Shown piece by piece: positions 27,977-52,162 of a DNA stretch of 64,000 nt (positions are counted from its first letter, which is position 1; each line of letters begins with the position of its first letter). The notes under the pieces were generated by a model. It did not search any database and had not been told where the DNA came from. It was given only the letters and a program-made list of their open reading frames with translations. Made by a program: the position numbers and the translations under genes. Origin of the DNA: an uncultured Raoultella sp. Its GTDB lineage: Bacteria; Pseudomonadota; Gammaproteobacteria; Enterobacterales; Enterobacteriaceae. The stretch spans positions 124,001-188,000 of the forward strand of contig CAAEVH010000048.1 in assembly GCA_900759445.1 (NCBI GenBank), in the 5' to 3' direction.

Positions 27977-27991
27977 GGCCGCTCATTTAAC

Positions 27992-28218
27992 GATCTCGTT
28001 ATGGCGAGGCTCCTGCACAAATACAAGTTACCGCCCTGCTGGTATCGAGAGAGACCACTCAGGGAAATACAGGCATCCATCGAATCAAGGTGTTGCCAAG
28101 GTAACTTCTGACGGCATTCATGCCGGACAGATACGTTGTGCAGTGCTAAAACCAGGACGTAGGGATCTGCCTGTGCTCATCCTGTCTTGTTCGCCCCTAT
28201 GAGTGATTTTTTATAGGG
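27992..28218 (+). promoter_or_regulatory. M-box (ykoK) magnesium riboswitch in the mgtE leader
   Basis: Two hallmark blocks of the M-box aptamer are present in order: GTTATGGCGAGGCTCCTG at 27999-28016 and CAGTGCTAAA at 28141-28150. They are closed by an exact 8-bp pairing of CTGCACAA (28013-28020) with TTGTGCAG (28135-28142). A basal helix can form between GATCTC (27992-27997) and GGGATC (28162-28167). Downstream, CCCTAT (28195-28200) can pair with ATAGGG (28213-28218), which covers the mgtE ribosome site. Binding of Mg2+ would be expected to lower mgtE expression. Confidence 0.8.
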
Positions 28219-28227
28219 AATTACACC

Positions 28228-29241
28228 ATGTCTTCAATGCAACACTGCGCCGCGCATCTGGCCACTTCCGCCTTCGACGGCGATGCGATCGCCCAGTACA
28301 TGCGTACCGATTTTATCACTCTGCCCGAGCACCTCAGCGTCTATGAAGCGCGGGAGCTCTTTGTCTCGCAGCTCACCAGCGATGATATTCCAGGCCAGGT
28401 CTTTGTGGTGGCCGGAAAGAAGCTGCGCGGCAGTTTATCGATTAAAAAGCTGCTTCAGGAGAGCGATACGGCGCAATCCATTCGCTATCTGATGGACAGC
28501 TGCCTGTTTCGCGTGAAGCCCGATGATGAGCGTCAGGAGGTGGTCGCCGAACTGAGCGAACGCGGACTCGACCTGGTGCCGGTGGTTGAAAAAGGCGAAC
28601 TGGTCGGCTGCCTGATGGAGAAAGAGATTGCCCATCTGCTGGAAGACGACGTCACCGAAGATGTGCATCGCCAGGGCGCAACGCTCCCGCTGGATAAGCC
28701 CTATCTGGAGATCAGCCCGTGGACGCTGTGGAAAAAACGTTCGGTGTGGTTATTGCTGCTGTTCGTCGCGGAAGCCTACACCAGCAGCGTCATTCAACAT
28801 TTTGAAGAGGCGCTGGAATCGGCCATTGCGCTGGCCTTCTTTATTCCGCTGCTGATCGGTACCGGCGGTAACAGCGGTACGCAGATCACCTCCACGCTGG
28901 TCCGTTCCATGGCGCTCGGGGAAGTCCGCCTGCGCGATATGGGCCGGGTGATTCGTAAAGAGATGACGACGTCGCTGCTGATTGCCATCACTCTCGGTCT
29001 GGCGGGCTGCCTGCGCGCCTGGATGATGGGCATTGGCATGGAGATCACCCTGATTGTCAGCCTGACGCTGGTATGTATTACGCTGTGGAGCGCGGTGGTA
29101 TCGTCAGTGATCCCTCTGACGCTTAAGCGCGTGGGCATCGACCCGGCGGTCGTCTCCGCGCCGTTTATCGCCACGCTGATTGATGGCACCGGGCTGATTA
29201 TCTACTTCAAAATCGCCCAGCACTTTCTTGGTCTGAGCTGA
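28228..29241 (+). CDS. mgtE: MgtE-family magnesium transporter, short form
   Basis: A 337-residue protein with a CBS-domain pair at about residues 20-150 and five membrane helices from about 172 to 335. The pore region GTGGNSGTQITSTL and the final AVVSAPFIATLIDGTGLIIYF are the family hallmarks. It lacks the roughly 130-residue N domain found in the 450-residue Thermus-type MgtE. It should import Mg2+ (or Co2+) down the electrochemical gradient, gated by Mg2+ bound to the CBS domains. It is controlled by the M-box leader directly upstream. Confidence 0.85.
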   Translation: MSSMQHCAAHLATSAFDGDAIAQYMRTDFITLPEHLSVYEARELFVSQLTSDDIPGQVFVVAGKKLRGSLSIKKLLQESDTAQSIRYLMDSCLFRVKPDDERQEVVAELSERGLDLVPVVEKGELVGCLMEKEIAHLLEDDVTEDVHRQGATLPLDKPYLEISPWTLWKKRSVWLLLLFVAEAYTSSVIQHFEEALESAIALAFFIPLLIGTGGNSGTQITSTLVRSMALGEVRLRDMGRVIRKEMTTSLLIAITLGLAGCLRAWMMGIGMEITLIVSLTLVCITLWSAVVSSVIPLTLKRVGIDPAVVSAPFIATLIDGTGLIIYFKIAQHFLGLS

Positions 29242-41120: not shown

Positions 41121-42473
41121 ATGAGCAAACATTATGATTACATCGCTATCGGCGGCGGCAGTGGCGGCATCGCCTCCATCAACCGTGCGGCAATGTATGG
41201 CCAGAAGTGCGCGCTGATTGAAGCTAAAGATCTGGGCGGCACCTGCGTCAACGTCGGCTGCGTACCGAAGAAAATCATGTGGCATGCGGCGCAGATTCGC
41301 GAAGCGATTCATCTGTATGGCCCGGACTACGGTTTCGATACCACGATTAACCACTTCGACTGGGACAAACTGGTGGCCAGCCGCAGCGCGTATATCGACC
41401 GTATCCACACCTCCTACGACAACGTGTTAGGCAAAAACAAGGTTGATGTCATCAAAGGCTTCGCCCGTTTTGTGGATGCTAAAACCGTGGAAGTGAATGG
41501 CGAAACGATCACCGCCGATCATATCCTGATCGCCACCGGCGGCCGTCCGAGCCATCCGTCTATTCCGGGCGTTGAGTACGGCATCGACTCTAACGGCTTC
41601 TTCGAGCTGCCGGCCCTGCCGAAGCGCGTCGCCGTGGTGGGCGCAGGCTATATTGCCGTTGAGCTGGCTGGCGTCATTAACGGCCTCGGCGCCGAAACGC
41701 ACCTGTTCGTGCGTAAACATGCGCCGCTGCGCAGCTTCGATCCGCTGATCGTCGATACCCTGGTCGAAGTGATGAACAGCGAAGGGCCGCAGCTGCACAC
41801 TCACGCCATTCCGCAAGCGGTAGTGAAAAACGCAGACGGCAGCCTGACGCTTCAGCTGGAAGATGGCCGGAGTCAGACCGTGGATTGCCTGATCTGGGCC
41901 ATTGGGCGTGAGCCGGAGACCGATAATTTCAACCTCGCAGCCGCTGGCGTAAAAACCAACGACAAAGGCTATATCGTGGTGGATAAATTCCAGAACACCA
42001 ACGTGCCGGGGATCTATGCCGTGGGCGATAACACCGGGGCGGTGGAGCTGACGCCGGTGGCGGTAGCGGCGGGTCGTCGTCTGTCTGAACGCCTGTTCAA
42101 CAACAAGCCGGAAGAGCATCTGGATTACAGCAATATCCCGACTGTGGTCTTCAGCCATCCGCCGATCGGCACCGTCGGTTTAACCGAGCCGCAGGCGCGC
42201 GAGCAGTATGGCGATGACGCCGTGAAAGTCTATAAATCCGCTTTCACCGCCATGTATACCGCCGTGACCTCGCACCGCCAGCCGTGCCGCATGAAGCTGG
42301 TATGCGTCGGCCCGGAAGAGAAGATTGTCGGCATTCACGGTATCGGCTTCGGCATGGATGAAATGCTGCAGGGCTTTGCGGTGGCGCTGAAAATGGGCGC
42401 CACCAAGCAGGACTTCGACAATACCGTGGCGATTCACCCGACGGCCGCGGAAGAGTTCGTAACCATGCGTTAA
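41121..42473 (+). CDS. gor: Glutathione reductase
   Basis: A 450-residue FAD-dependent NADPH:glutathione disulfide reductase. The redox disulfide is in [13 protein letters not shown] (about residues 40-50), the FAD motif GGGSGG near residue 10, the NADPH motif [11 protein letters not shown] near 175 and the catalytic C-terminal HPTAAEE. It keeps glutathione reduced. A TACAAT -10 lies near 41061. The terminator after it closes the transcript. Confidence 0.97.
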
Positions 42474-42480
42474 TCCTCTC

Positions 42481-42505
42481 AGCCCCGTGTTCTCACGGGG
42501 CTTTT
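42481..42505 (+). terminator. Rho-independent terminator of gor
   Basis: AGCCCCGTG-TTCT-CACGGGGCT followed by TTT, seven bases after the gor stop. Confidence 0.85.
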
Positions 42506-42526
42506 AAACCTCATTGCGTGATACCT

Positions 42527-43582
42527 TCAGGCGCTATCGCCTATCTCAATCAGGACTTTTACAAAAAACGTTTCCCGCTGATATAACCCGGGAAAAATAG
42601 CCGGAACATCTTTAAGCGCGACGCGTTTAGTGATTAAAGGCTGAACATCAATGACGCCGGAACTGAGGTACTTAATCGATGTATCCCACTCCGGGCCTGG
42701 GAAAGGCGCTGAAATAGAATTCCACGAACCCAGCACTTTAATTTCATTGCGGATAATTTTCTCAAAGTTAAGCCGGGGGAAAGCGACGTCGCCATAAGGA
42801 ATACCCAAGAGGACCACGGCCCCACCTTTCGCCGCCAGAAGCATTGCGCTGGCAATCCCCGCGGGATGCCCTGAAGACTCAATAACGATATCTACGCCGG
42901 AGCTTTCTGTGAGCTCATGAAAACGGGACAGATAGCCTTCATCCTCGACCGAGAAAACATCTCTGGCCCCGGTCTCTTTGGCGATATCGAGCTTCTTTCG
43001 ATCGGTATCAAAAGCAAACACTTCCCCGGCACCACAGACCTGGGCCCACTGTACTGCCAGCAGCCCGATGGTACCGCAGCCAACCACCGCCACCCGGCAG
43101 CCAACTTTAATATCGACCTGGCGTAGAGCGTGTACCACTACGCTGGAAGGTTCAATAAAGCTTGCCGTCGCAAAATCCATGGTCGCAGGCAGAAGTAAAA
43201 CATTACGCGACGGCACCACAATATATTCCGCAAAAGCGCCGTTTTTATGTCCCCCGAGAACGTTGAGATCGATGCACTGCGAATAGCGCCCTTGTTGGCA
43301 ATATTTGCATTGAAAACAGGGGAAGCAATTACAGGCCGTCACGCGATCGCCATTTTTCACTTCCTTCACAGCAGGACCGGTTTTCACCACTTCACCAGAA
43401 AATTCGTGCCCCCAGGTCAGCCCAGGGTTATAAGATCCCAGTTTGCCAAAACGAGAAATATCGGAGCCACAGATGCCCGCAACCTGGACCTTAATTAAAA
43501 CATCGTCATCATTTTCAATGTCGGGTTGGATCGTCTCTTCATATCTCACATCCTGTCGCGAATAAAGATTTAATGCTTTCAT
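42527..43582 (-). CDS. Zinc-dependent polyol(-phosphate) dehydrogenase
   Basis: A 351-residue medium-chain dehydrogenase. Catalytic zinc ligands lie in GICGSD and GHE (TWGHEFSGEV); the structural zinc is held by four cysteines in CFPCFQCKYCQQGRYSQC. The NAD motif is GCGTIGLLAVQ. It is closest in look to galactitol-1-phosphate 5-dehydrogenase GatD, so a polyol phosphate from the PTS is a likely substrate; that is inference. ATG at 43582 is chosen because the family starts at MKAL; the upstream extension is non-coding. It is the last gene of the locus, separated from the HPr gene by a structured 155-base gap. Confidence 0.8.
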   Translation of the reverse strand: MKALNLYSRQDVRYEETIQPDIENDDDVLIKVQVAGICGSDISRFGKLGSYNPGLTWGHEFSGEVVKTGPAVKEVKNGDRVTACNCFPCFQCKYCQQGRYSQCIDLNVLGGHKNGAFAEYIVVPSRNVLLLPATMDFATASFIEPSSVVVHALRQVDIKVGCRVAVVGCGTIGLLAVQWAQVCGAGEVFAFDTDRKKLDIAKETGARDVFSVEDEGYLSRFHELTESSGVDIVIESSGHPAGIASAMLLAAKGGAVVLLGIPYGDVAFPRLNFEKIIRNEIKVLGSWNSISAPFPGPEWDTSIKYLSSGVIDVQPLITKRVALKDVPAIFPGLYQRETFFVKVLIEIGDSA

Positions 43583-43633
43583 ATCATCACTCCCGGATAA
43601 AAAGTGAATGAGAGTCATAAAGCGAGTGAGCCA

Positions 43634-43709
43634 TTGGGTGAGAAACGACAACAGAAAGCCGTTGAGGCTGCATAAGCGAGCCTCTGTTGCTGATGTGAAT
43701 CTCACCCAA
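43634..43709 (-). repeat. Nested inverted-repeat element between HPr and dehydrogenase genes
   Basis: Outer arms TTGGGTGAGA (43634-43643) and TCTCACCCAA (43700-43709) are perfectly complementary. Inside, CAACAGA (43649-43655) pairs with TCTGTTG (43683-43689), and GAGGCT (43664-43669) with AGCCTC (43679-43684). The transcript can fold into one long branched hairpin of about 76 nucleotides. No T-run follows. It may be a processing or stabilising element separating the two genes, or a small mobile palindrome. Confidence 0.65.
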
Positions 43710-43737
43710 AATACAGGGGCATAATTTATTTCGTGAA

Positions 43738-44007
43738 TTACTCTTTTTCGCCAAAGCCCGCAGCGAAAGCAGTTTTTAATTCACTCATTAATTCATGTTC
43801 ATCCTCGCCATTGCAGATAATATCAATCATGGTATTACCCTTTACGCCAGCACCAAGAATACTCATCATGCCTTTTATCTGAATCTCTCGTCCTTCATTG
43901 ACCAGCGTTAATGATGAGGTATATTTCTTCACGATCCGGGCAAGAGTGGCCGCTGGCCTGGCGTGAAGTCCGGTACTGTTGACGACTCTGACGCTTTGTC
44001 TAATCAT
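43738..44007 (-). CDS. HPr-family phosphocarrier, locus-specific
   Basis: An 89-residue HPr homologue. The phosphorylated histidine is His15 in STGLHARPAA. The residue equivalent to regulatory Ser46 is glycine (IKGMMS), so it cannot be a target of HPr kinase. It follows the aldolase gene by 23 bases. It is probably the phosphoryl donor for the IIA encoded at the top of the locus, taking phosphate from general enzyme I. Confidence 0.87.
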   Translation of the reverse strand: MIRQSVRVVNSTGLHARPAATLARIVKKYTSSLTLVNEGREIQIKGMMSILGAGVKGNTMIDIICNGEDEHELMSELKTAFAAGFGEKE

Positions 44008-44030
44008 AATTCACTTAGCTCTAATAATTT

Positions 44031-44891
44031 TCAGGATGCCTGGCGTAGAAACTGATGCCCTTTATTCATCATAAGAATCTTAGAGTAGACATCATCTTCA
44101 ACGGCTTGTTTTGCCGATGCCATAACTCGTGCCAGATTGGCTTCGTTATTGTTCTGTTGATAAGCTTTGCCAACGGAGGTAATAAAGGCTTTACGTAAAT
44201 CGCTGGCAATATTCACCTTGACCACGTTATAGTTCACAAAACTACGCAGGATATCTTCGTCAATTCCTGAACCGCCGTGAATGACCAGAGGGACCGGCGA
44301 GACTTCAGCAATTCTCTGCAGCAGCGGAATATCAATACGCGGGACATCATCAAGACCGTGGACGTTACCAATGGAGATAGCCAGCATATCGCAGCCGGTC
44401 TGTTCAACAAATGTCCGTACCTTTTCTGGTTCCGTTTTGCAGTCGGCTTCGCTGACATGATCGTCTTCTTTACCTAAAATCGCCCCCAGCTCAGCCTCAA
44501 CCGGAACGCCATATGATTTACAGAAATCAACGGCAGCGGCGGTGAACGCAATGTTTTCTTCGAAGGAAAATGCTGCGCCATCAATCATAACGGAGGTAAA
44601 ACCCGCCCGTACGGCCTGTTTGACATCATCAAAAGTTTTACCATGATCGAGGTGCAGGCTAACCGGCACATCCATTTTATCAGCATGACGTTTAACGATT
44701 TCATAAATATAGTCATAGCCTGATAATTGCGCATTGGTCGGTGCAATCTGGATGAAGTTTGGTAACCCTGAGCGCTCAATAGCATTGAGAATCGAGATGG
44801 TGGTTTCCAGATTCGTGGTATTGAATGCACCGGCAAGTACACGTTTCTCGCGGATACGATCCAGCAAGATTTTACCGTTAACTAATGGCAT
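44031..44891 (-). CDS. Class II ketose-phosphate aldolase (GatY/KbaY type)
   Basis: A 286-residue zinc-dependent aldolase. Catalytic Asp82 and zinc ligand His83 lie in LHLDHG; the other zinc histidines are in GNVHGLDD and IHGGSG. Length and layout match tagatose-1,6-bisphosphate aldolase GatY/KbaY and the E. coli YdjI group, so the substrate could be a ketose bisphosphate or a ketose 1-phosphate, giving DHAP and an aldehyde. It lies between the regulator and the HPr gene, with 11 and 23 bases to each. Confidence 0.83.
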   Translation of the reverse strand: MPLVNGKILLDRIREKRVLAGAFNTTNLETTISILNAIERSGLPNFIQIAPTNAQLSGYDYIYEIVKRHADKMDVPVSLHLDHGKTFDDVKQAVRAGFTSVMIDGAAFSFEENIAFTAAAVDFCKSYGVPVEAELGAILGKEDDHVSEADCKTEPEKVRTFVEQTGCDMLAISIGNVHGLDDVPRIDIPLLQRIAEVSPVPLVIHGGSGIDEDILRSFVNYNVVKVNIASDLRKAFITSVGKAYQQNNNEANLARVMASAKQAVEDDVYSKILMMNKGHQFLRQAS

Positions 44892-44902
44892 AGCATTATC
44901 CT

Positions 44903-45640
44903 CTATCTTCGTTGAAGAATAGTACCTAAATAATATTTATCTGATTTTAACCAGACGTTTCCTAAATCAAATGGCATTTTGTTTTCAAGGAAAACAAGTT
45001 GTTCGAGGTGCAAAACGGGGGCATCTTCATTGACTTCTAAATAATGACCACGTTCGCTACCAACAATTTTTGCTGCATAACGGCTTTCCGAATAGACAAT
45101 TTTTTGACCAGATAACTCTTCAACCGTTGGAAACAAATTTTGTTTATTAAAGTCAACATCAGTAATTCCAGGGCAGAGTGCAATGTTGATTCTGTTTTCA
45201 ATCAGCATCACTCTCTCGCCTTCCACGCTACGTACACGTTTAAGGTAAAGAATAGGCGCGCCAGGCTCAATTCTTAATTTCTCGGCAACACTTTTCGACG
45301 CTTTCTCAATATATGAAGTAATAACTTCAGTAGTAAATGACAAATGCTGACTTTCAAGTGATTCAGCAAAAGACAATAAACCTTCGCCAAGGGCATAAGA
45401 AATATTTTCTTTTTTTACAAATGTCCCCTTCCCCTGAACCTGGACCAGCAAACCTTCATTGACCAGCATGGTGACCGCTTTCTTTACGGTGCCCCGGCTG
45501 ACCTGCAGTATTTCCATAATCTGGTTCTCAGAAGGAATACGATCGCCTTTGCCCAGCTCCCCTTTATAGATGTTTTCGCGGATCCATTCAGAAACCTGCA
45601 TATACAACGGAATTTCTGAATCTTTCAGTATGGTGCTCAT
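44903..45640 (-). CDS. GntR/HutC-family regulator with UTRA domain
   Basis: A 245-residue regulator. Residues about 8-75 are the GntR winged helix (SENQIMEILQVSRGTVKKAVTML) and about 95-240 a UTRA effector domain, which usually binds a sugar or sugar phosphate. It sits inside the catabolic locus, starting its own second transcription unit together with aldolase and HPr. Similar sequence elements precede this gene and the PTS IIA gene, so it probably controls both. Confidence 0.83.
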   Translation of the reverse strand: MSTILKDSEIPLYMQVSEWIRENIYKGELGKGDRIPSENQIMEILQVSRGTVKKAVTMLVNEGLLVQVQGKGTFVKKENISYALGEGLLSFAESLESQHLSFTTEVITSYIEKASKSVAEKLRIEPGAPILYLKRVRSVEGERVMLIENRINIALCPGITDVDFNKQNLFPTVEELSGQKIVYSESRYAAKIVGSERGHYLEVNEDAPVLHLEQLVFLENKMPFDLGNVWLKSDKYYLGTILQRR

Positions 45641-45664
45641 GTTGTGCTTCTCCTGTGTAGATCA

Positions 45665-45686
45665 TCTGTATACAAGTATGAACAAG
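45665..45686 (-). promoter_or_regulatory. Candidate operator upstream of the GntR gene
   Basis: A 22-base element, on the minus strand CTTGTTCATA followed directly by CTTGTATACA and GA. It agrees at 16 of 22 positions with an element before the PTS IIA gene, including the tandem TTG-N2-CA pattern at a 10-base period. It is 25 bases upstream of the gene start. Confidence 0.5.
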
Positions 45687-45790
45687 TTACGATAATACAG
45701 AGTTTTTTAAAAATCTAACTATATGATCAACTTCACAGTTTCAGCCCAACCCCCTGTTCCCCCTGTAACAAAGCGTTACGTGGCATATCG

Positions 45791-45821
45791 GCCCCCTCCC
45801 GACCGTTGAGCGGGAAGGGGC
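45791..45821 (-). terminator. Hairpin downstream of the first dehydrogenase gene
   Basis: GCCCCTTCCCG and CGGGAGGGGGC (minus strand) pair over 11 bp, one of them G-T, with a 9-base loop. It lies 8 bases after the stop of the dehydrogenase gene ending at 45829. It lacks a T-run, so it may only partly stop transcription before the GntR gene. Confidence 0.5.
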
Positions 45822-45828
45822 TCCCCGC

Positions 45829-46863
45829 TTAACCCTCAGATTTAATAATTATTTTCAGTACGTCGTTTTCAGGATTTGCCGCAAACTCAATTGCTTCTTC
45901 AAGACGAGAAAGAGGCCAGGTATGCGTGATCATCTCTCTGGTATTGATTTTGTCTTTTTCAACGATCTCAATCGCTTCTTTCATGTCGTAAGGGGTGAGA
46001 GAGTATGTACCAACGATGGATATTTCATCCCGGAACAGGCGTCCGGCATCAATTTCCACCACCGGGTTTTTATCAAATGGCGAGAATACAACGACCCGAC
46101 CTCCCCGCCGCACCACGTTCACCGCCTGAGAAACTAATGACGACACGCCGGCCGCAATAATCACCACGTCGGGCCCTTTCCCATCGGTTATTTCAGCTAC
46201 CCGCGTTTCAAGATCTTCATTCGCCGGGTCAATCGCATGGGTTACGCCGATTTTCAACGCCAGTTCACGTTTAAAGCGCGAAAGGTCGGAAACGATGACG
46301 GTTGATGCCCCCTTCAGCGCGGCAAGCTGTGCGCTGACCAGGCCAATGGTGCCGGAACCCAATACCAGCACCGTATCTTTTGCATGGATATTTGCTGATT
46401 TCAGACCATGTAAACAACAGGCCACCGGTTCGATCATCGCCGCACGATCCCAGTCGAGTTGCTCCACAATTCGATGCGTCAGATGCTCAACGTGTAGCTG
46501 AGGGATACGAATGAACTCACTGAAACCACCGGGCTCAAGATTGGTTTTTTTAAATTGATCGCAGAGGGTAAAATATCCTCTGTCGCAGTAGTGGCAGTTA
46601 AAACAAGGAACGTGAATAGCGGTTATCACGCGTTCGCCCACGCGGTAGCGGGTCACGTTTTTCCCGACCTTCACAACTTCGCCAGAGACTTCATGGCCGA
46701 GAATAACAGGCCCCGTTACGGTCTGGTGCTGCGCCTTATGAATATCAGTGCCGCACAGACCGCAGGAGTGCATTTTAATGAGCATATCGCCATCGCCTAT
46801 TTCAGGCACCGCGATATCTTCATAACGAATATCATTTTTGCTGTAGTAGACGCTGGCTTTCAT
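45829..46863 (-). CDS. Zinc-dependent polyol dehydrogenase
   Basis: A 344-residue medium-chain dehydrogenase. The catalytic zinc site is in GLCGTDIH and GHEVSGEV, structural cysteines in CFNCHYCDRGYFTLC and the NAD motif in GSGTIGLVSAQ. It resembles sorbitol/threonine dehydrogenases. It is clearly different from the second dehydrogenase of the locus, so two oxidation steps or two substrates are likely. Its start overlaps the kinase stop by 4 bases. Confidence 0.8.
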   Translation of the reverse strand: MKASVYYSKNDIRYEDIAVPEIGDGDMLIKMHSCGLCGTDIHKAQHQTVTGPVILGHEVSGEVVKVGKNVTRYRVGERVITAIHVPCFNCHYCDRGYFTLCDQFKKTNLEPGGFSEFIRIPQLHVEHLTHRIVEQLDWDRAAMIEPVACCLHGLKSANIHAKDTVLVLGSGTIGLVSAQLAALKGASTVIVSDLSRFKRELALKIGVTHAIDPANEDLETRVAEITDGKGPDVVIIAAGVSSLVSQAVNVVRRGGRVVVFSPFDKNPVVEIDAGRLFRDEISIVGTYSLTPYDMKEAIEIVEKDKINTREMITHTWPLSRLEEAIEFAANPENDVLKIIIKSEG

Positions 46864-48374
46864 TGGCTAACTCCATAACAAAGATGCTCAGCACGCATCT
46901 TGGATTCATAAAGCGGTTTATACACCTGGCTAAAAATTTGCTGATAATGTGCAACAACCTCAGGCTCTGGCCGATAATTTTTCAGCTCTGCCGGCGCGGT
47001 AAGGGCACAGTTATCCATATCCACTCCGACGGCTTTTGCCGCCAGCATTGCCGCCCCTTTGCTCACGGCCTCATCGACATTACAGGCGACAATTTCCCTG
47101 TTCAGAATGTTTGCTTTCAGCTGTAGCCAGTAGGGGTTTTTACACGCCGCACCAATGACGTTGACGACCGGGTAGTGGCGCCCTGTCAGGGTTTCATACA
47201 AATCGAGAAGATTTTTCAGTTCAAAACACAAGCCCTGGAAAACGAAGCGCAGAACATCTTCAGGCCGGGATTTATCATCAAGTCCATAAATCAACGCCCT
47301 GGACCAGGTATTCCTGTCCGGCGGCCCGCTACCCCGCAAATGAGGAATAAAAATGCCGTCCAGTGAGCCTGCAACAACCCGATCTTTTTCATTTCTCAGC
47401 GTATCCACCATGCGCAGAAAAGCAGGCATATCGAGTTCAAACAGGTTTCTGAACCATTCAATGGCGTAGCCAGCCGAAGGCAGCGAGGCATACAGAGAAT
47501 GAAGCCCCGGCAAAACATGGACCCCGTTAGAGACCCTGGCACGGAAAAAGCTTCTGCTGTTGTTGACGGCCTCGGTCACCACCAACAATCCTTCCGTGGT
47601 GCCGGTAGAATTCAATATTTGGTTTTCGTTATTCAAGCCGACGGCGACAGAACCACACATATGATCATGCCCGGCAATGGCAACCTGCACATCGTCCGCC
47701 AGCCCGGTGAGGCCGGCAACCTCTGGGGTGATATGGCCTATCGACGTTCCGGCATGAACCAGCGGGCTAAACAGGGATGGGGAAAGTTTGGCCGCGGCCA
47801 GCATCGTTTCGTCCCAACCTCTCTCCGTGATATTCAATGCCATGGTCCGCGAGGCCAGGGAGTACTCCGAGCGTTTTATGCCTGACAATTTAAAGGCAAT
47901 ATATTCGGCAAGACACAACCACTTTGTTCCATCTGCGGCATTTTTAATATTGTCATGCAACCATCTAATTTTATTAATACTGTAATTTGAATGCGCCGGG
48001 ATACCGGTTATTTCATATATACTTTCAACATCCACAGCCGAAATAATACTCTCCAGCTGCCGTTTTGGCCGGGTATCATACCAGGTTAAAGATGGCCCAA
48101 TAATATTATCATACTCATCGAGCAACACGCCGGCTTCCCCAACGCTGGCAACAGCAACGGCGCGGATATCTGTCACATCGGGTCGATTACCAGTTATCGT
48201 TTTCAGGCCATGGACAATACCCTCCCATATCAGGCGGACGTCAAAATCGGTATTATCGCCATCAATAAGTTTGGCGGTCCTGAAACTATACTGTTCAATT
48301 AAATCAAGCGAAGGAACCTGAAACAAACACACCTTACAATTTGTCGTACCAACATCGATTCCGATCGTATACAT
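46860..48374 (-). CDS. FGGY-family carbohydrate kinase
   Basis: A 504-residue sugar kinase of the FGGY (xylulokinase/gluconokinase) family. The N-terminal phosphate loop is GIDVGTTNCKVCLF, and AGHDHMCGS and LNSTGTTEG are the second nucleotide-binding signatures. It should phosphorylate a free ketose or sugar acid, so its presence beside a PTS is unexpected. ATG at 48374 starts at the family N terminus MYTIGID; an upstream ATG adds a basic tail. Overlap with the next gene suggests coupling. Confidence 0.82.
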   Translation of the reverse strand: MYTIGIDVGTTNCKVCLFQVPSLDLIEQYSFRTAKLIDGDNTDFDVRLIWEGIVHGLKTITGNRPDVTDIRAVAVASVGEAGVLLDEYDNIIGPSLTWYDTRPKRQLESIISAVDVESIYEITGIPAHSNYSINKIRWLHDNIKNAADGTKWLCLAEYIAFKLSGIKRSEYSLASRTMALNITERGWDETMLAAAKLSPSLFSPLVHAGTSIGHITPEVAGLTGLADDVQVAIAGHDHMCGSVAVGLNNENQILNSTGTTEGLLVVTEAVNNSRSFFRARVSNGVHVLPGLHSLYASLPSAGYAIEWFRNLFELDMPAFLRMVDTLRNEKDRVVAGSLDGIFIPHLRGSGPPDRNTWSRALIYGLDDKSRPEDVLRFVFQGLCFELKNLLDLYETLTGRHYPVVNVIGAACKNPYWLQLKANILNREIVACNVDEAVSKGAAMLAAKAVGVDMDNCALTAPAELKNYRPEPEVVAHYQQIFSQVYKPLYESKMRAEHLCYGVSQ

Positions 48375-48453
48375 TACTCTCCCCTTCTTTTTGCAAGGGA
48401 CATAGTTTGTTTTTATTCTGAGGCAGAACATCTCTGCCTCAGAATCAGCAGGA

Positions 48454-49857
48454 TTATTTCGCTAGCGGAATATCACTCGTCGAGACTTCTGTATTTTCAG
48501 CCGCCTCTTCTGCCTGAAGCTGTTTTTTCGTTACACGATAGAGCCACAGACATAACAGGAATATGACCGGGATAAGAGCCAAAGCAATTCCATTACCTTC
48601 AAAGACTTTCACCGCCCAGAACCGATAAGGGTTACCGCCATCAAGCAGACTTGATATTTCACCATCGGTTTTGATGGGGAAATTCATATCTCGGGCAATT
48701 TTAGTCAGAATCGGCGCCGCCGCTGATGCCACATACAGGTTCACAGCAAGACAAGGAATACCGATAATAAATGCTCTGACAATATTCCCACGACAGGCCA
48801 GTACAACCATCGATATTGGTACCCAAATATTAGCCAGATCGCCCAACGGTAACAGTCTGTTGCCAGGCAGAATAACGGCAAGGAGCACCCCAACCGGAAT
48901 CAGTAACAGAGCGGTCGACAGTACGGATGGGTGACCCACGGCGACCGCAATGTCGAGACCAATATAAAGATCGTGACGGTCTGGATAACGCTTACGCAGG
49001 AAACTTCTGACGGCATCTGATAATGGCAACAGCCCTTCCATCAACAGTTTTACCATCCGCGGCATAATCAGCATGACTGCCCCAAGGCTCATAGCCAGGT
49101 TCAACACACCTTTCAGGTCGTATTCTGCCAGCAGACCAATACCTGCCCCCAGAATCACCCCTAACATCATCGGCTCGCCGAAAACACCAAATCGTTTCTG
49201 GATCTGTTCCGGATCAGCATTCAGCTTGTTAATACCAGGGATTTTATCAAGCACCATATTTCCCAGCACGCCGATCGGGAAGAAGATGACGGACGACAAT
49301 GTGGGCAGTGAAATCCCAGGTAGATTGAAGTATTTCTGGATCATCGGCGCACACCAGTCCGCCATCACAAAGGTGATAGCCGCCGTCACGCCGGCAATCA
49401 GTAACCCGAAGAAGAAGCTGCCGGTAACTCCATATACCATGGCGCCGACCATAGAGAAGTGCCAGAAATTCCAGACATCAATATCGACCGTTTTAGTCCA
49501 GTTCAGGGTTAACATAAGTACGTTGATACCGATGGTCATCGGCACGACAAACGGCGCGACCTGTGAAGCCCAGGCAATAGCCGCAAGCGGTGTCCAGCCC
49601 AGATCGACGACCGGTAAATCAATGCCGGTGTGGCTAACCATCTCTTTCGCCGCCGGGCCAAGGCTATCGACCAGTAAACCAAAGACCAGGAAGATGCCGA
49701 TGAAGCCCATACCGATTGTCAGGGCCGAGCGTAATGCCCGGCTAAAACCGGTCTGCAGGCACATTGCCATAATAAAAATAATTATCGGCAACATGATCGT
49801 CGGACCGAGCCCCAGAATAAACTGGACTGCGGAAAATACTTTATCCATCATGCTCAC
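48454..49857 (-). CDS. PTS EIIC, galactitol type
   Basis: A 467-residue integral membrane protein with about ten helices, of the GatC (SgcC/galactitol) family of PTS permeases. Typical stretches are GMGFIGIFLVFGLL near residue 50 and WNFWHFSMVGAMVYG near 128. It transports the polyol or sugar for phosphorylation by the IIB encoded just upstream. An alternative ATG lies two codons in (49851). Confidence 0.85.
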   Translation of the reverse strand: MSMMDKVFSAVQFILGLGPTIMLPIIIFIMAMCLQTGFSRALRSALTIGMGFIGIFLVFGLLVDSLGPAAKEMVSHTGIDLPVVDLGWTPLAAIAWASQVAPFVVPMTIGINVLMLTLNWTKTVDIDVWNFWHFSMVGAMVYGVTGSFFFGLLIAGVTAAITFVMADWCAPMIQKYFNLPGISLPTLSSVIFFPIGVLGNMVLDKIPGINKLNADPEQIQKRFGVFGEPMMLGVILGAGIGLLAEYDLKGVLNLAMSLGAVMLIMPRMVKLLMEGLLPLSDAVRSFLRKRYPDRHDLYIGLDIAVAVGHPSVLSTALLLIPVGVLLAVILPGNRLLPLGDLANIWVPISMVVLACRGNIVRAFIIGIPCLAVNLYVASAAAPILTKIARDMNFPIKTDGEISSLLDGGNPYRFWAVKVFEGNGIALALIPVIFLLCLWLYRVTKKQLQAEEAAENTEVSTSDIPLAK

Positions 49858-49859
49858 CT

Positions 49860-50141
49860 TTATTTTTTAAGGATGGCTACGATTTTTTCCAGTAACTCTT
49901 CTTCACCAAAACCGGTCAGAAGTGGAAGGCCATTCAAAACCGGGGTGGTCAGTTCGGTTTTTACCGCTGAAGTAACAATAATTAAATCAGCCATACCGTC
50001 CTGTTTACCAATAGTTCCGATATTTGACTGAATGGGGTCAACATTAATACCTTGGCTTTTACAATACTGAACAACTTTCTCTGTTGCTACGGCGGAAGTA
50101 GCGATACCACTGGTACATGCAAAAATAATTTTCTTGTTCAT
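49860..50141 (-). CDS. PTS EIIB, galactitol type
   Basis: A 93-residue IIB protein starting MNKKIIFACTSGIATS; Cys9 is the phosphorylated residue. It takes phosphate from the IIA protein and passes it to the sugar at IIC. ATG at 50141 is chosen over one six codons upstream because the fold starts at MNKKI. It ends two bases before the IIC gene. Confidence 0.87.
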   Translation of the reverse strand: MNKKIIFACTSGIATSAVATEKVVQYCKSQGINVDPIQSNIGTIGKQDGMADLIIVTSAVKTELTTPVLNGLPLLTGFGEEELLEKIVAILKK

Positions 50142-50180
50142 CGTAATCTCCGGGTACATTTATCAGGTGTAGTTGCTATT

Positions 50181-50645
50181 TTAATTAATGACTTCTTCGA
50201 GGAGTGTCTTCACCACTGAAGGTGAACTGGCTTTTAAAATCGCATCCATCTTGTCAGTTTGTCTGAACAAGCCGATCATTTTCATGAGAAAATCAATATG
50301 CGCATCTTTTTCTTTTAACAGCAGGAAAAATATAACCTGTACCGACATAACTTCATCGGGATCTTCTGCCTGCTTAAATTCAATCCCTTCCGGGCAGGTC
50401 ACTACAACCAGTTTTTCCTCTTTAATATGCTCAACATCCACATGAGGAATCGCGACACCAATTCTCTCCAGTTGCATCGCCGTCGGATTATTTTCTTCCC
50501 TGCTGATCAAGGCAGAAAGATAAGTACTTTCGACAAAGCCATGCCTATAGAGCAGGTTGCCTACCTCGCCAAACAACGTTTCACGCTCACCCCCAGGGTG
50601 GTTTAGCAATATAAAATCGTTATCAAGACTGGTTGCAATGGACAT
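50181..50645 (-). CDS. PTS EIIA, fructose/galactitol type
   Basis: A 154-residue IIA protein of the fructose/mannitol superfamily. The phosphorylated histidine is His68 in IGVAIPHVDVEH. It is the first gene of the operon IIA-IIB-IIC-kinase-dehydrogenase. ATG at 50645 fits the family start (MSIATSLDNDFILLN); a longer form from 50702 is unlikely because it would run over the candidate operator region. Confidence 0.87.
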   Translation of the reverse strand: MSIATSLDNDFILLNHPGGERETLFGEVGNLLYRHGFVESTYLSALISREENNPTAMQLERIGVAIPHVDVEHIKEEKLVVVTCPEGIEFKQAEDPDEVMSVQVIFFLLLKEKDAHIDFLMKMIGLFRQTDKMDAILKASSPSVVKTLLEEVIN

Positions 50646-50707
50646 AAAAACACCTCGGGTCCCGGTGAGAGATTTGCGTGTAACATATCTACTGTCAGTC
50701 ATGGTTG

Positions 50708-50729
50708 TCTATGTACAACCATGTTCAAG
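50708..50729 (-). promoter_or_regulatory. Candidate GntR operator upstream of the PTS operon
   Basis: On the minus strand CTTGAACATG then GTTGTACATA and GA: two tandem 10-base copies of a (C/G)TTG-N2-CAT-like unit. It shares 16 of 22 positions with the element before the GntR gene. It overlaps an inverted repeat GGTTGT-N6-ACAACC at 50703-50720. It lies 63 bases before the IIA start. Confidence 0.5.
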
Positions 50730-50782: not shown

Positions 50783-50798
50783 TGTGCTATGCATCACA
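50783..50798. promoter_or_regulatory. CRP-cAMP site upstream of the PTS operon
   Basis: TGTGC-TATGCA-TCACA matches the CRP consensus TGTGA-N6-TCACA with one difference. It is about 140 bases before the IIA start and suggests catabolite control of the locus. Confidence 0.65.
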
Positions 50799-50896: not shown

Positions 50897-52162
50897 CTAC
50901 AGGTGTGAGGACCGCTCAGACAACGGGGGACGTTGGTATACGCTGTCATATCCGCTACAGGGGTTGACCTGTTCGCCAGACAGAGGGTGACTTACCGACG
51001 GTGCTGATAGCCGATTTTGCAAAATAGCGTGGCCGATGTAGTTACTCCAGTTAAAGCTGTTTTGCAGCACCACCACCGCATTCTGATTAGCCTTATCAAA
51101 ACCGATATAGCTGGAATAGCCACCGATATAACCCACCTGATAGGTGATTCTTTGCCCTGCGAGGGTATCGGTCACCCAGGCGATATTGGCCGCCTCTTTT
51201 TCCCGCGGATAGTAATCAACGCTGACGTCGGCAAAAGCCTTATCCAGCGCGGCATGTTGGGTCGGAGAAAAATGGGCGCGGGCGTATTCGATCAGATCGC
51301 GAGCATCGCTGTACAGGTTCGCCGCTCCGACCATATTGTTGCTGAACTGCCAGTCCGGCGTGAGCGCGCCGCGAGGTTTAAACTTCGGCTGGTCGCCGGC
51401 ATGGCCGAGGGCCCGTCGGGGATATTCGCGCAGGGTCTGCGGAAGATAGCTGCTATTTCTCATCGCCAGCGGCTGGAAAATCATCCTTGAGGCCAGCGCC
51501 GCAACGGATTCGCCGGTCTGATAGGTAAGGATATAACCCAGAATTGCGTAGCCCAGATTGGAGTATTCCGGTTCATGGCTCAGCGGCGCGTTAAAGGTGC
51601 TCAGGTAACTCAGTACCCGCTCATTATCCAGTTCGTGATAGAAATTTTCGCCATCACTCAGATAAACCAGCAAATGCTCAAGCGACAGCAGGTTCATCGG
51701 CTGGCGCGGCAGGCCTGAAGTGTGCGTCACCAGCTGCAACAAGGTGATTTTTTTCGCGTCATCACTCAGCGGCGTACCCGGCGGTAACAACGTCAGTAGC
51801 GTATCGTCCCAGTGCAATCGCCCCTCGTTGACCAGCAGGGTTATCACCTCGGCGGTGGTGCCTTTACTCAGCGAACCCAGCGCAAAGAGCGTATCCGGGG
51901 TAATGGGATAACGGTTTTTGGCATCGGTCACACCATAGCAGTGGAACTCCGCCGGACCGTTGTGATGAATGATCGCCACCACCACGCCGCTGACCTGCTT
52001 GCGTTGCATATAGCGGCTGACGAACGCATCGATGGGCAGAACATGGCTATTTTGCCCGACCAGGCTGGTTTCATCTGAGGGGACGCTCATTTGTGAAAGC
52101 GTTCCGGAGCATCCTACAAGCAGCAGCGACGCCAATAGCACAGGGCTCAACTGCCTGTTCAA
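50897..52162 (-). CDS. Lipoprotein serine hydrolase of the class C beta-lactamase fold
   Basis: A 421-residue exported lipoprotein: signal peptide with lipobox LVGC, modified Cys18. It has the active-site motifs of the family, Ser97-x-x-Lys100 (SLSK) and Tyr200-Ser-Asn202. In place of the third K/H-T-G motif there is GYIGGYSS near residue 340, so it is probably a D-alanyl peptidase or esterase and not a resistance beta-lactamase. No linked function is visible; the neighbours are catabolic operons on the same strand. Confidence 0.78.
   Translation of the reverse strand: MNRQLSPVLLASLLLVGCSGTLSQMSVPSDETSLVGQNSHVLPIDAFVSRYMQRKQVSGVVVAIIHHNGPAEFHCYGVTDAKNRYPITPDTLFALGSLSKGTTAEVITLLVNEGRLHWDDTLLTLLPPGTPLSDDAKKITLLQLVTHTSGLPRQPMNLLSLEHLLVYLSDGENFYHELDNERVLSYLSTFNAPLSHEPEYSNLGYAILGYILTYQTGESVAALASRMIFQPLAMRNSSYLPQTLREYPRRALGHAGDQPKFKPRGALTPDWQFSNNMVGAANLYSDARDLIEYARAHFSPTQHAALDKAFADVSVDYYPREKEAANIAWVTDTLAGQRITYQVGYIGGYSSYIGFDKANQNAVVVLQNSFNWSNYIGHAILQNRLSAPSVSHPLSGEQVNPCSGYDSVYQRPPLSERSSHL

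Follow-up and report, generated by a model that had tools for sequence, protein, structure and literature searches.

A galactitol-type PTS, FGGY kinase and class II aldolase locus of an uncultured Raoultella sp. represents one of three or more variants built on a shared core

The described systems closest to the locus considered here, a nine-gene block of an uncultured Raoultella sp., are the gat and ydj clusters of Escherichia coli K-12 and the D-tagatose pathways. The gat operon has a galactitol (GAT)-type phosphotransferase system (PTS), a class II aldolase and the dehydrogenase GatD, together with GatZ, and, as an earlier note on this DNA correctly stated, contains neither an FGGY kinase nor an HPr. 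The ydj cluster combines a class II aldolase and a kinase with two zinc dehydrogenases, and has the putative transporters YdjE and YdjK in place of a PTS. The D-tagatose pathways, namely that of the tag genes of Klebsiella and Salmonella and the Gram-positive tagatose 6-phosphate pathway, operate with a PTS, a kinase and a bisphosphate aldolase, their second kinase being of the PfkB type. We analysed a stretch of 64,000 nucleotides (hereafter, the window; GenBank assembly GCA_900759445.1, contig CAAEVH010000048.1, positions 124,001 to 188,000), in which nine uninterrupted minus-strand reading frames, between 50645 and 42527, follow one another in the order IIA, IIB, IIC, FGGY kinase, zinc dehydrogenase DH2, GntR regulator, class II aldolase, HPr and zinc dehydrogenase DH1 (Table 1). 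The gene families that the earlier note had named are borne out by the open frames and by profile matches.

The locus resembles each of these systems in part: the gat operon in its GAT-type PTS, class II aldolase and GatD-like dehydrogenase, the ydj cluster in its aldolase, kinase and two zinc dehydrogenases, and the D-tagatose pathways in what would be a like-working succession of PTS, kinase and bisphosphate aldolase, except that the second kinase would here belong to the FGGY family. Plain gat or ydj membership, which the note had likewise denied, is rejected in view of profile cut-offs and gene content. When the window proteins were profiled against Pfam and NCBIfam/TIGR models with curated equivalog cut-offs, the PTS proteins, the kinase and both dehydrogenases all stayed below every equivalog cut-off listed. 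On the GatD equivalog NF007642 (cut-off 550), DH1 scored 258 bits and DH2 145 bits; the aldolase scored 214 bits on the GatY/KbaY-type model TIGR01858, against a cut-off of 443.55, and no GatZ is present among the nine genes. The aldolase is 35% identical to GatY, 34% to KbaY and 31% to YdjI, and has Arg at position 233, where YdjI has Cys. We found no characterised pathway that matches the locus gene for gene, and the substrate, as the note had anticipated, could not be assigned from sequence.

Thirty-two loci, the window included, could be classed as type A (12 loci, among them the window), type B (18) or type C (2), and all 32 encode a PTS, an FGGY kinase, an aldolase and a GntR regulator. 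Two E. coli copies were left unclassed, a decayed one in strain DEF2 (L035) and one in strain 702/18 (L037) that is intact by annotation; L022 and L044 are repeats of L016 and L010, and L001-L009 are parts of fully read loci. Type A has the order IIA-IIB-IIC-kinase-DH2-GntR-aldolase-HPr, followed in 10 of the 12 loci by the optional DH1, and these ten have all nine genes. Type B, carried by E. coli, Salmonella-like genomes and other enterics, runs GntR-IIA-IIB-IIC-kinase-aldolase-HPr, with HPr preceding the aldolase in E. coli and its close kin, and type C runs GntR-aldolase-IIA-IIB-IIC-kinase-DH2, without HPr or DH1. Apart from the decayed DEF2 copy, all loci read with their surroundings have the kinase gene after IIC. 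DH2 is tied to the A/C kinase (14/14 A and C loci, 0/18 B), and none of the 18 type B clusters contains a dehydrogenase gene. Since PTS, kinase and aldolase are common to every type, they constitute the core, and the Raoultella locus stands for one of the three or more arrangements built on it. The note's picture of a merger between the gat and ydj designs does not survive this comparison, the aldolase being no closer to YdjI than to GatY or KbaY and the kinase being tied to the PTS, not to a dehydrogenase. The gene-neighbourhood search that it had proposed did find kinase and PTS conserved together, and returned neither of the outcomes named as speaking against the idea, a characterised pathway with the same genes or separate conservation of kinase and PTS.

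The type B operon of E. coli, which in O157:H7 lies between nikR and yhhJ, shares with the window GntR, IIA, IIB, IIC, FGGY kinase, HPr, an operator-like repeat and an aldolase 90% identical, but has no dehydrogenase and is only 35% identical in the kinase, 55% in IIC, 28% in IIA and 48% in HPr. The HPr of E. coli and its close kin (L034, L036, L042, L084, L085) is a distinct one, about 48% identical to that of the window; the HPr proteins of the other type B loci are 70-80% like the latter. At the same site in E. coli DEF2 (L035:6890-9294), the decayed type B copy is annotated with a frameshifted IIC and a truncated kinase and aldolase, its HPr being unannotated, a sign that some strains are losing the operon. 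The kinase of one type B genome (G301) adjoins a protein named Salmonella enterica in the kinase tree, which places that genome in Salmonella.

The proteins of types A and B have diverged to very unequal extents. Mean A-B identity, from 198 pairs per protein, is 23% for IIA, 46% for IIB, 55% for IIC, 34% for the kinase, 62% for HPr, 67% for GntR and 85% for the aldolase, and aldolase identity does not tell the types apart, being 87% within type A. Trees of IIC and of the kinase split A from B at 100/100. The aldolase tree mixes the types, type A falling on one side of a branch in 0/200 bootstrap trees, and the approximately unbiased (AU) test narrowly rejects a type A aldolase clade (p-AU 0.046); L018, nearly identical to the window, was excluded from trees and AU tests and included in the identity table. 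Type C is nearer to A than to B in IIC (74% identical to A) and kinase (44%), and its aldolase is distant from both A and B (59% and 57%). Most simply, this can be read as a history that is in part separate for the transporter-kinase(-DH2) portion and for the aldolase, with one and the same final reaction in A and B. The divergent IIC and kinase and the shared aldolase therefore suggest that different front ends feed one aldolase.

From gene content, order and conservation, together with the shared motif and aldolase, we infer the reactions, their order and the repression proposed here. The reading that we favour, with an even chance of being right, is a catabolic operon for a sugar or polyol with a linear route, whereby a sugar phosphate delivered by the PTS receives a second phosphate from the FGGY kinase and is then cleaved by the aldolase. 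The IIABC proteins would import and phosphorylate the substrate, with the HPr encoded in the operon as one of the proteins that feed them. In type A, DH2 would oxidise the polyol phosphate from the PTS to a ketose phosphate, and the GatD-like DH1 would do likewise for a second polyol phosphate; the dehydrogenases would merely adapt type A to polyols, and type B would start from a ketose-level substrate, so that no dehydrogenase would be needed. The kinase would place the second phosphate at the other end, and the aldolase would split the ketose bisphosphate into dihydroxyacetone phosphate and an aldehyde phosphate, that is, two triose phosphates from a six-carbon substrate, while GntR would repress both transcription units via TTGTNCATAG repeats. 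A broader proposal, which we hold tentatively and a little below even chances, is that a family of FGGY kinases switched from free sugars to sugar phosphates, and that recombination across enterobacteria and Firmicutes joined a polyol front end of PTS, kinase and DH2, and a divergent PTS-kinase front end for a ketose, to a single aldolase and regulator system that can be exchanged.

The window kinase is 23-27% identical to seven E. coli FGGY kinases and 37% identical to the type B kinase; its nearest solved structure is XylB (2itm, 128 bits), and among models of FGGY kinases of known specificity (XylB, FucK, RhaB, GlpK, LyxK, LsrK, AraB) the best match, TIGR01312, gave 232 bits against a cut-off of 380.25. 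In the kinase tree, the window, types A, B and C and 36 homologues lie across a branch from the seven references (SH-aLRT support 98; the branches are long). A residue survey, which omitted kinases shorter than 470 residues (6/218) and aldolases shorter than 270 (6/120), found His236, Asp237, His238 and Arg176 invariant in 216 family kinases and position 354 always Arg or Lys; His238 and a basic residue 354 occur in none of the seven E. coli FGGY kinases, and Arg176 is common to GlpK and His236 to FucK and RhaB. Arg233 is present in 117/117 family aldolases and residue 229 is Ala in 115 of them, the corresponding pair being Lys/Ala in GatY and KbaY, Cys/His in YdjI, Arg and Asp in the bisphosphate aldolases 2fjk and 8q58, and Gln and Asn in 4to8 and 7nc7. 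A phosphorylated acceptor would fit the basic residue that position 233 has throughout the family and in GatY and KbaY, as opposed to the Cys of YdjI, whose acceptor aldehyde, judging from the annotated product name, carries no phosphate. The aldolase family is thus compatible with a phosphorylated acceptor, although neither residue proves it, and Ala229 hints at a resemblance to tagatose-bisphosphate aldolases. A link between residue 255 of Giardia aldolase and tagatose stereochemistry was not confirmed by the literature found, and residue 229 is therefore used as a hint only. DH1 has GatD as its nearest solved structure (4a2c, 220 bits), is 35% identical to it and shares with it the stretch SW....PxPGxEW, which DH2, YdjJ and YdjL lack; it is therefore likely to be a polyol-phosphate dehydrogenase. 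For DH2 the nearest solved structures are a dehydrogenase without an assigned role (4ej6, 182 bits) and a ketose reductase.

In type B the PTS, kinase and aldolase stand alone, and this gene content suggests that the PTS product is the most probable substrate of the kinase. The earlier note had proposed two branches instead: one dehydrogenase would oxidise the PTS product, the other would supply the kinase with a free ketose, and both branches would meet at the aldolase. Such a scheme would account for the two dehydrogenases and the kinase beside the PTS in the window and in 10/12 type A loci, and for the GatD-like character of DH1 but not DH2; yet PTS, kinase and aldolase are kept in all 18 type B clusters without a clustered dehydrogenase, a PTS is present wherever the kinase is found, and a further transporter, for a free polyol, is absent from the cluster. 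The lack of a dehydrogenase in type B led us to drop the two branches, which are dispensable, as leading model, and they now appear quite improbable. The linear route has its own difficulties. To our knowledge, no FGGY kinase acts on a sugar phosphate; Arg233 is not diagnostic, given the Gln of the two fructose-bisphosphate aldolases 4to8 and 7nc7; the mixing of types in the aldolase tree is only just significant, and a single type A clade survives the AU test for HPr (p-AU 0.387); and enzymes missing from type B clusters could be encoded elsewhere in the genome. A SurE-type phosphatase gene, moreover, follows HPr in 5/12 type A clusters (L011-L014, L079), the window not being one of them, as would be expected if the PTS phosphate were removed before the kinase step.

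This last possibility is above all the rival to be reckoned with, although we consider it unlikely: the PTS product would be dephosphorylated, the free polyol oxidised, and the ketose 1-phosphate made by the kinase split into dihydroxyacetone phosphate and an unphosphorylated aldehyde. It accords with the use of free sugars by known FGGY kinases as well as with the SurE-type genes, but one phosphoenolpyruvate would be wasted per sugar, the invariant Arg233 is unlike YdjI, and no SurE was found in the window and flanks, in 7/12 type A, 18/18 type B or 2/2 type C clusters. As an observation in its own right, a type A cluster is an unusual place for surE. That the locus is simply a galactitol (dulcitol) or D-tagatose operon in which enzymes have been substituted is slightly less probable still. 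It would explain the galactitol-type PTS, the GatD-like DH1 and the Ala229 that the aldolase shares with GatY and KbaY, and the genome nearest to the window among those compared (G001) indeed has no gene above the GatD cut-off. On the other hand, no locus protein reaches a gat equivalog cut-off, and 4/7 genomes exceed the GatD cut-off with a canonical GatD encoded elsewhere (G007 and G303 of type A, G301 and G104 of type B), so that in these the locus is not a mere gat replacement. It is a little more doubtful, and as improbable as the two branches, that the PTS yields a ketose 1-phosphate which the aldolase splits directly, leaving the kinase to phosphorylate the resulting aldehyde, such as glyceraldehyde. 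Three-carbon substrates can be accepted by glycerol kinases, and Glu80 and Arg176 of the kinase family align with identical residues in glycerol kinase; the best profile and structure matches of the kinase, however, are to xylulokinase and not to glycerol kinase, and Arg233 speaks for an acceptor that is already phosphorylated.

The motif referred to above is a tandem 10-bp operator-like repeat, TTGTNCATAG, spotted by side-by-side reading of upstream regions and present in all three types. When two repeat units were scored together over 18 fixed positions, the best match showed no more than three mismatches upstream of IIA in 12/12 type A loci, upstream of gntR in the same 12/12 and upstream of gntR in 17/18 type B loci, and no mismatch in both type C loci. 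The repeat was not found upstream in the remaining type B locus, L046 (8 mismatches), perhaps owing to a misplaced gene start. Shuffled sequences gave a mean of about 7 mismatches and never fewer than 4 in those sets, but they overstate the case, because these very regions supplied the consensus, which was drawn up by eye, and because the loci are related. The stronger argument for the repeat is its sharing by three types together with the silence of 49 within-operon control regions (upstream of IIA in B and C, and of the aldolase in A and B), which have 5-9 mismatches. In the window, an exact match to TTGTNCATAGACAA lies at 50705-50718. CRP-like matches number 3 in the window versus 1.2 expected, and promoter and terminator scans gave hits no more frequent than in shuffles.

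The locus is patchy, as the few positive genomes in each sample indicate. An exact-pattern scan of 84,980 species genomes recovered eight close kinase relatives, in Superficieibacter, Raoultella (2), Enterobacter (2), Buttiauxella, Serratia and an Enterobacterales metagenome-assembled genome; all but the last, which lacks DH1, have all nine genes in the same order (7/8), and recurrence of the same set and order in other genera puts the set beyond chance. The kinase was found in 9/60 relatives of G001, and within the genus (20 genomes) kinase and aldolase occur in the same 7. In family samples the aldolase was found in 11/295 genomes and the kinase in 19/392, the 11 all being among the 19; the aldolase is clustered with the kinase in every kinase-positive genome among the G001 relatives (9/9) and in the family (19/19). 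Wider samples yielded the aldolase in 4/394 genomes of the order and 1/274 of the class. The gene gor adjoins just 5/12 type A loci, window included. The type B operon is covered to 80% or more in 1615/5426 complete E. coli genomes, about three in ten, and a distant search detected the aldolase in 1617/5426; megablast with the window locus DNA gave no match in E. coli. Plasmid searches retrieved no operon copy, the two matching E. coli records being chromosome-sized (~4.9 Mb). The core is probably also present in Firmicutes, where 30/120 aldolase entries share contig sizes across protein lists versus 0.45 expected (jitter control), for instance in Listeria immobilis, Clostridium sp. D2Q-14 and Enterococcus sp. 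BWM-S5. An Enterococcus gilvus aldolase beside a fructose PTS was set aside as a member of another family (38% identical).

A widespread regulator-PTS-kinase-aldolase core without an assigned substrate is thus kept in E. coli, Salmonella-like genomes and relatives of Klebsiella. One study lists E. coli genes upregulated in bovine gut contents (PMC6199705), whose Z numbers match the operon by product and order only, and another lists Salmonella STM3780-85, under 'unknown sugars', as upregulated with a permissive chicken gut community (PMC11000858). These expression data suggest that the substrate may be a gut nutrient over which enterics compete. Comparison of A with B, two front ends on one aldolase, makes the search for this substrate concrete, and should an FGGY kinase indeed accept a sugar phosphate, an activity would have gone unnoticed in a large kinase family.

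Within the window, the expected motifs are present in HPr (GLHARPA), IIA (AIPH, with its His), IIB (FACTSG, with its Cys) and the aldolase (HLDH, VHG and HGGSG), as are the zinc ligands and four-Cys site of the dehydrogenases, all of which we take to be active-site residues; the HPr paralogue has Gly in place of the Ser46 of classical HPr. The start of DH1 is most likely the ATG at 43582 rather than the GTG at 43705, and that of IIA was set at 50645 because the longer start at 50702 abuts the operator-like repeat. GC content in 2-kb steps is 43-51% within the locus versus 56-61% on either side, and the block, a low-GC island in a Klebsiella-like genome, therefore looks acquired. G001 shares 90% of the window's sequence words and has the same locus.

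Table 1. Coordinates of the locus genes, putative regulatory sites and SurE-type genes (window positions unless a locus is named)
Feature	Position	Strand	Evidence or remark
IIA, galactitol-type PTS	50181..50645	-	PF00359 93 bits; GatA equivalog 66.6 vs cut-off 139, below
IIB, galactitol-type PTS	49860..50159	-	PF02302 42 bits; GatB equivalog 60.6 vs cut-off 95, below
IIC, EIIC-GAT family	48454..49857	-	PF03611 298 bits vs threshold 24.2; TIGR00827 454 bits vs cut-off 542
FGGY sugar kinase, type A	46860..48374	-	PF00370 146.8 bits and PF02782 71.6 bits, both FGGY domains
DH2, zinc dehydrogenase	45829..46863	-	PF08240 and PF00107; reading frame overlaps kinase frame
GntR/UTRA regulator	44903..45640	-	PF00392 and PF07702
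Class II ketose-bisphosphate-type aldolase	44031..44891	-	PF01116; NF005943 (PRK07998, 'class II aldolase') 544.6 bits vs cut-off 364; Arg233, Ala229
HPr paralogue with phosphorylatable His	43738..44007	-	TIGR01003 77.3 bits vs cut-off 47.9
DH1, GatD-like zinc dehydrogenase, accessory	42527..43582	-	PF08240 and PF00107
Operator-like repeat TTGAACATGG TTGTACATAG ACAAC upstream of IIA	50704..50728	-	kept in 12/12 type A
Operator-like tandem repeat TTGTTCATAC TTGTATACAG upstream of gntR	45666..45685	-
CRP-like site, weak evidence	50783..50798	-	one mismatch to TGTGA-N6-TCACA
SurE-type phosphatase gene	L011:14701-15483; L079:13679-14458

A 354-bp piece of the conjugative K. pneumoniae plasmid NZ_CP092401 (L107:5001-5354), near an IS21 element, is 98.9% identical to window positions 42459-42812 and corresponds to the last 94 residues of DH1. 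Adjoining the operon, at 50897-52162 on the minus strand, is a serine-hydrolase/beta-lactamase-like open reading frame (ORF) with a lipoprotein-like start, which among the other type A loci read stands beside that of G001 alone. Elsewhere in the window, an M-box magnesium riboswitch at 27988-28171 on the plus strand (RF00380, 110 bits versus 44) lies just upstream of a 337-aa ORF (28228-29241) that by its appearance may be an MgtE-type transporter.

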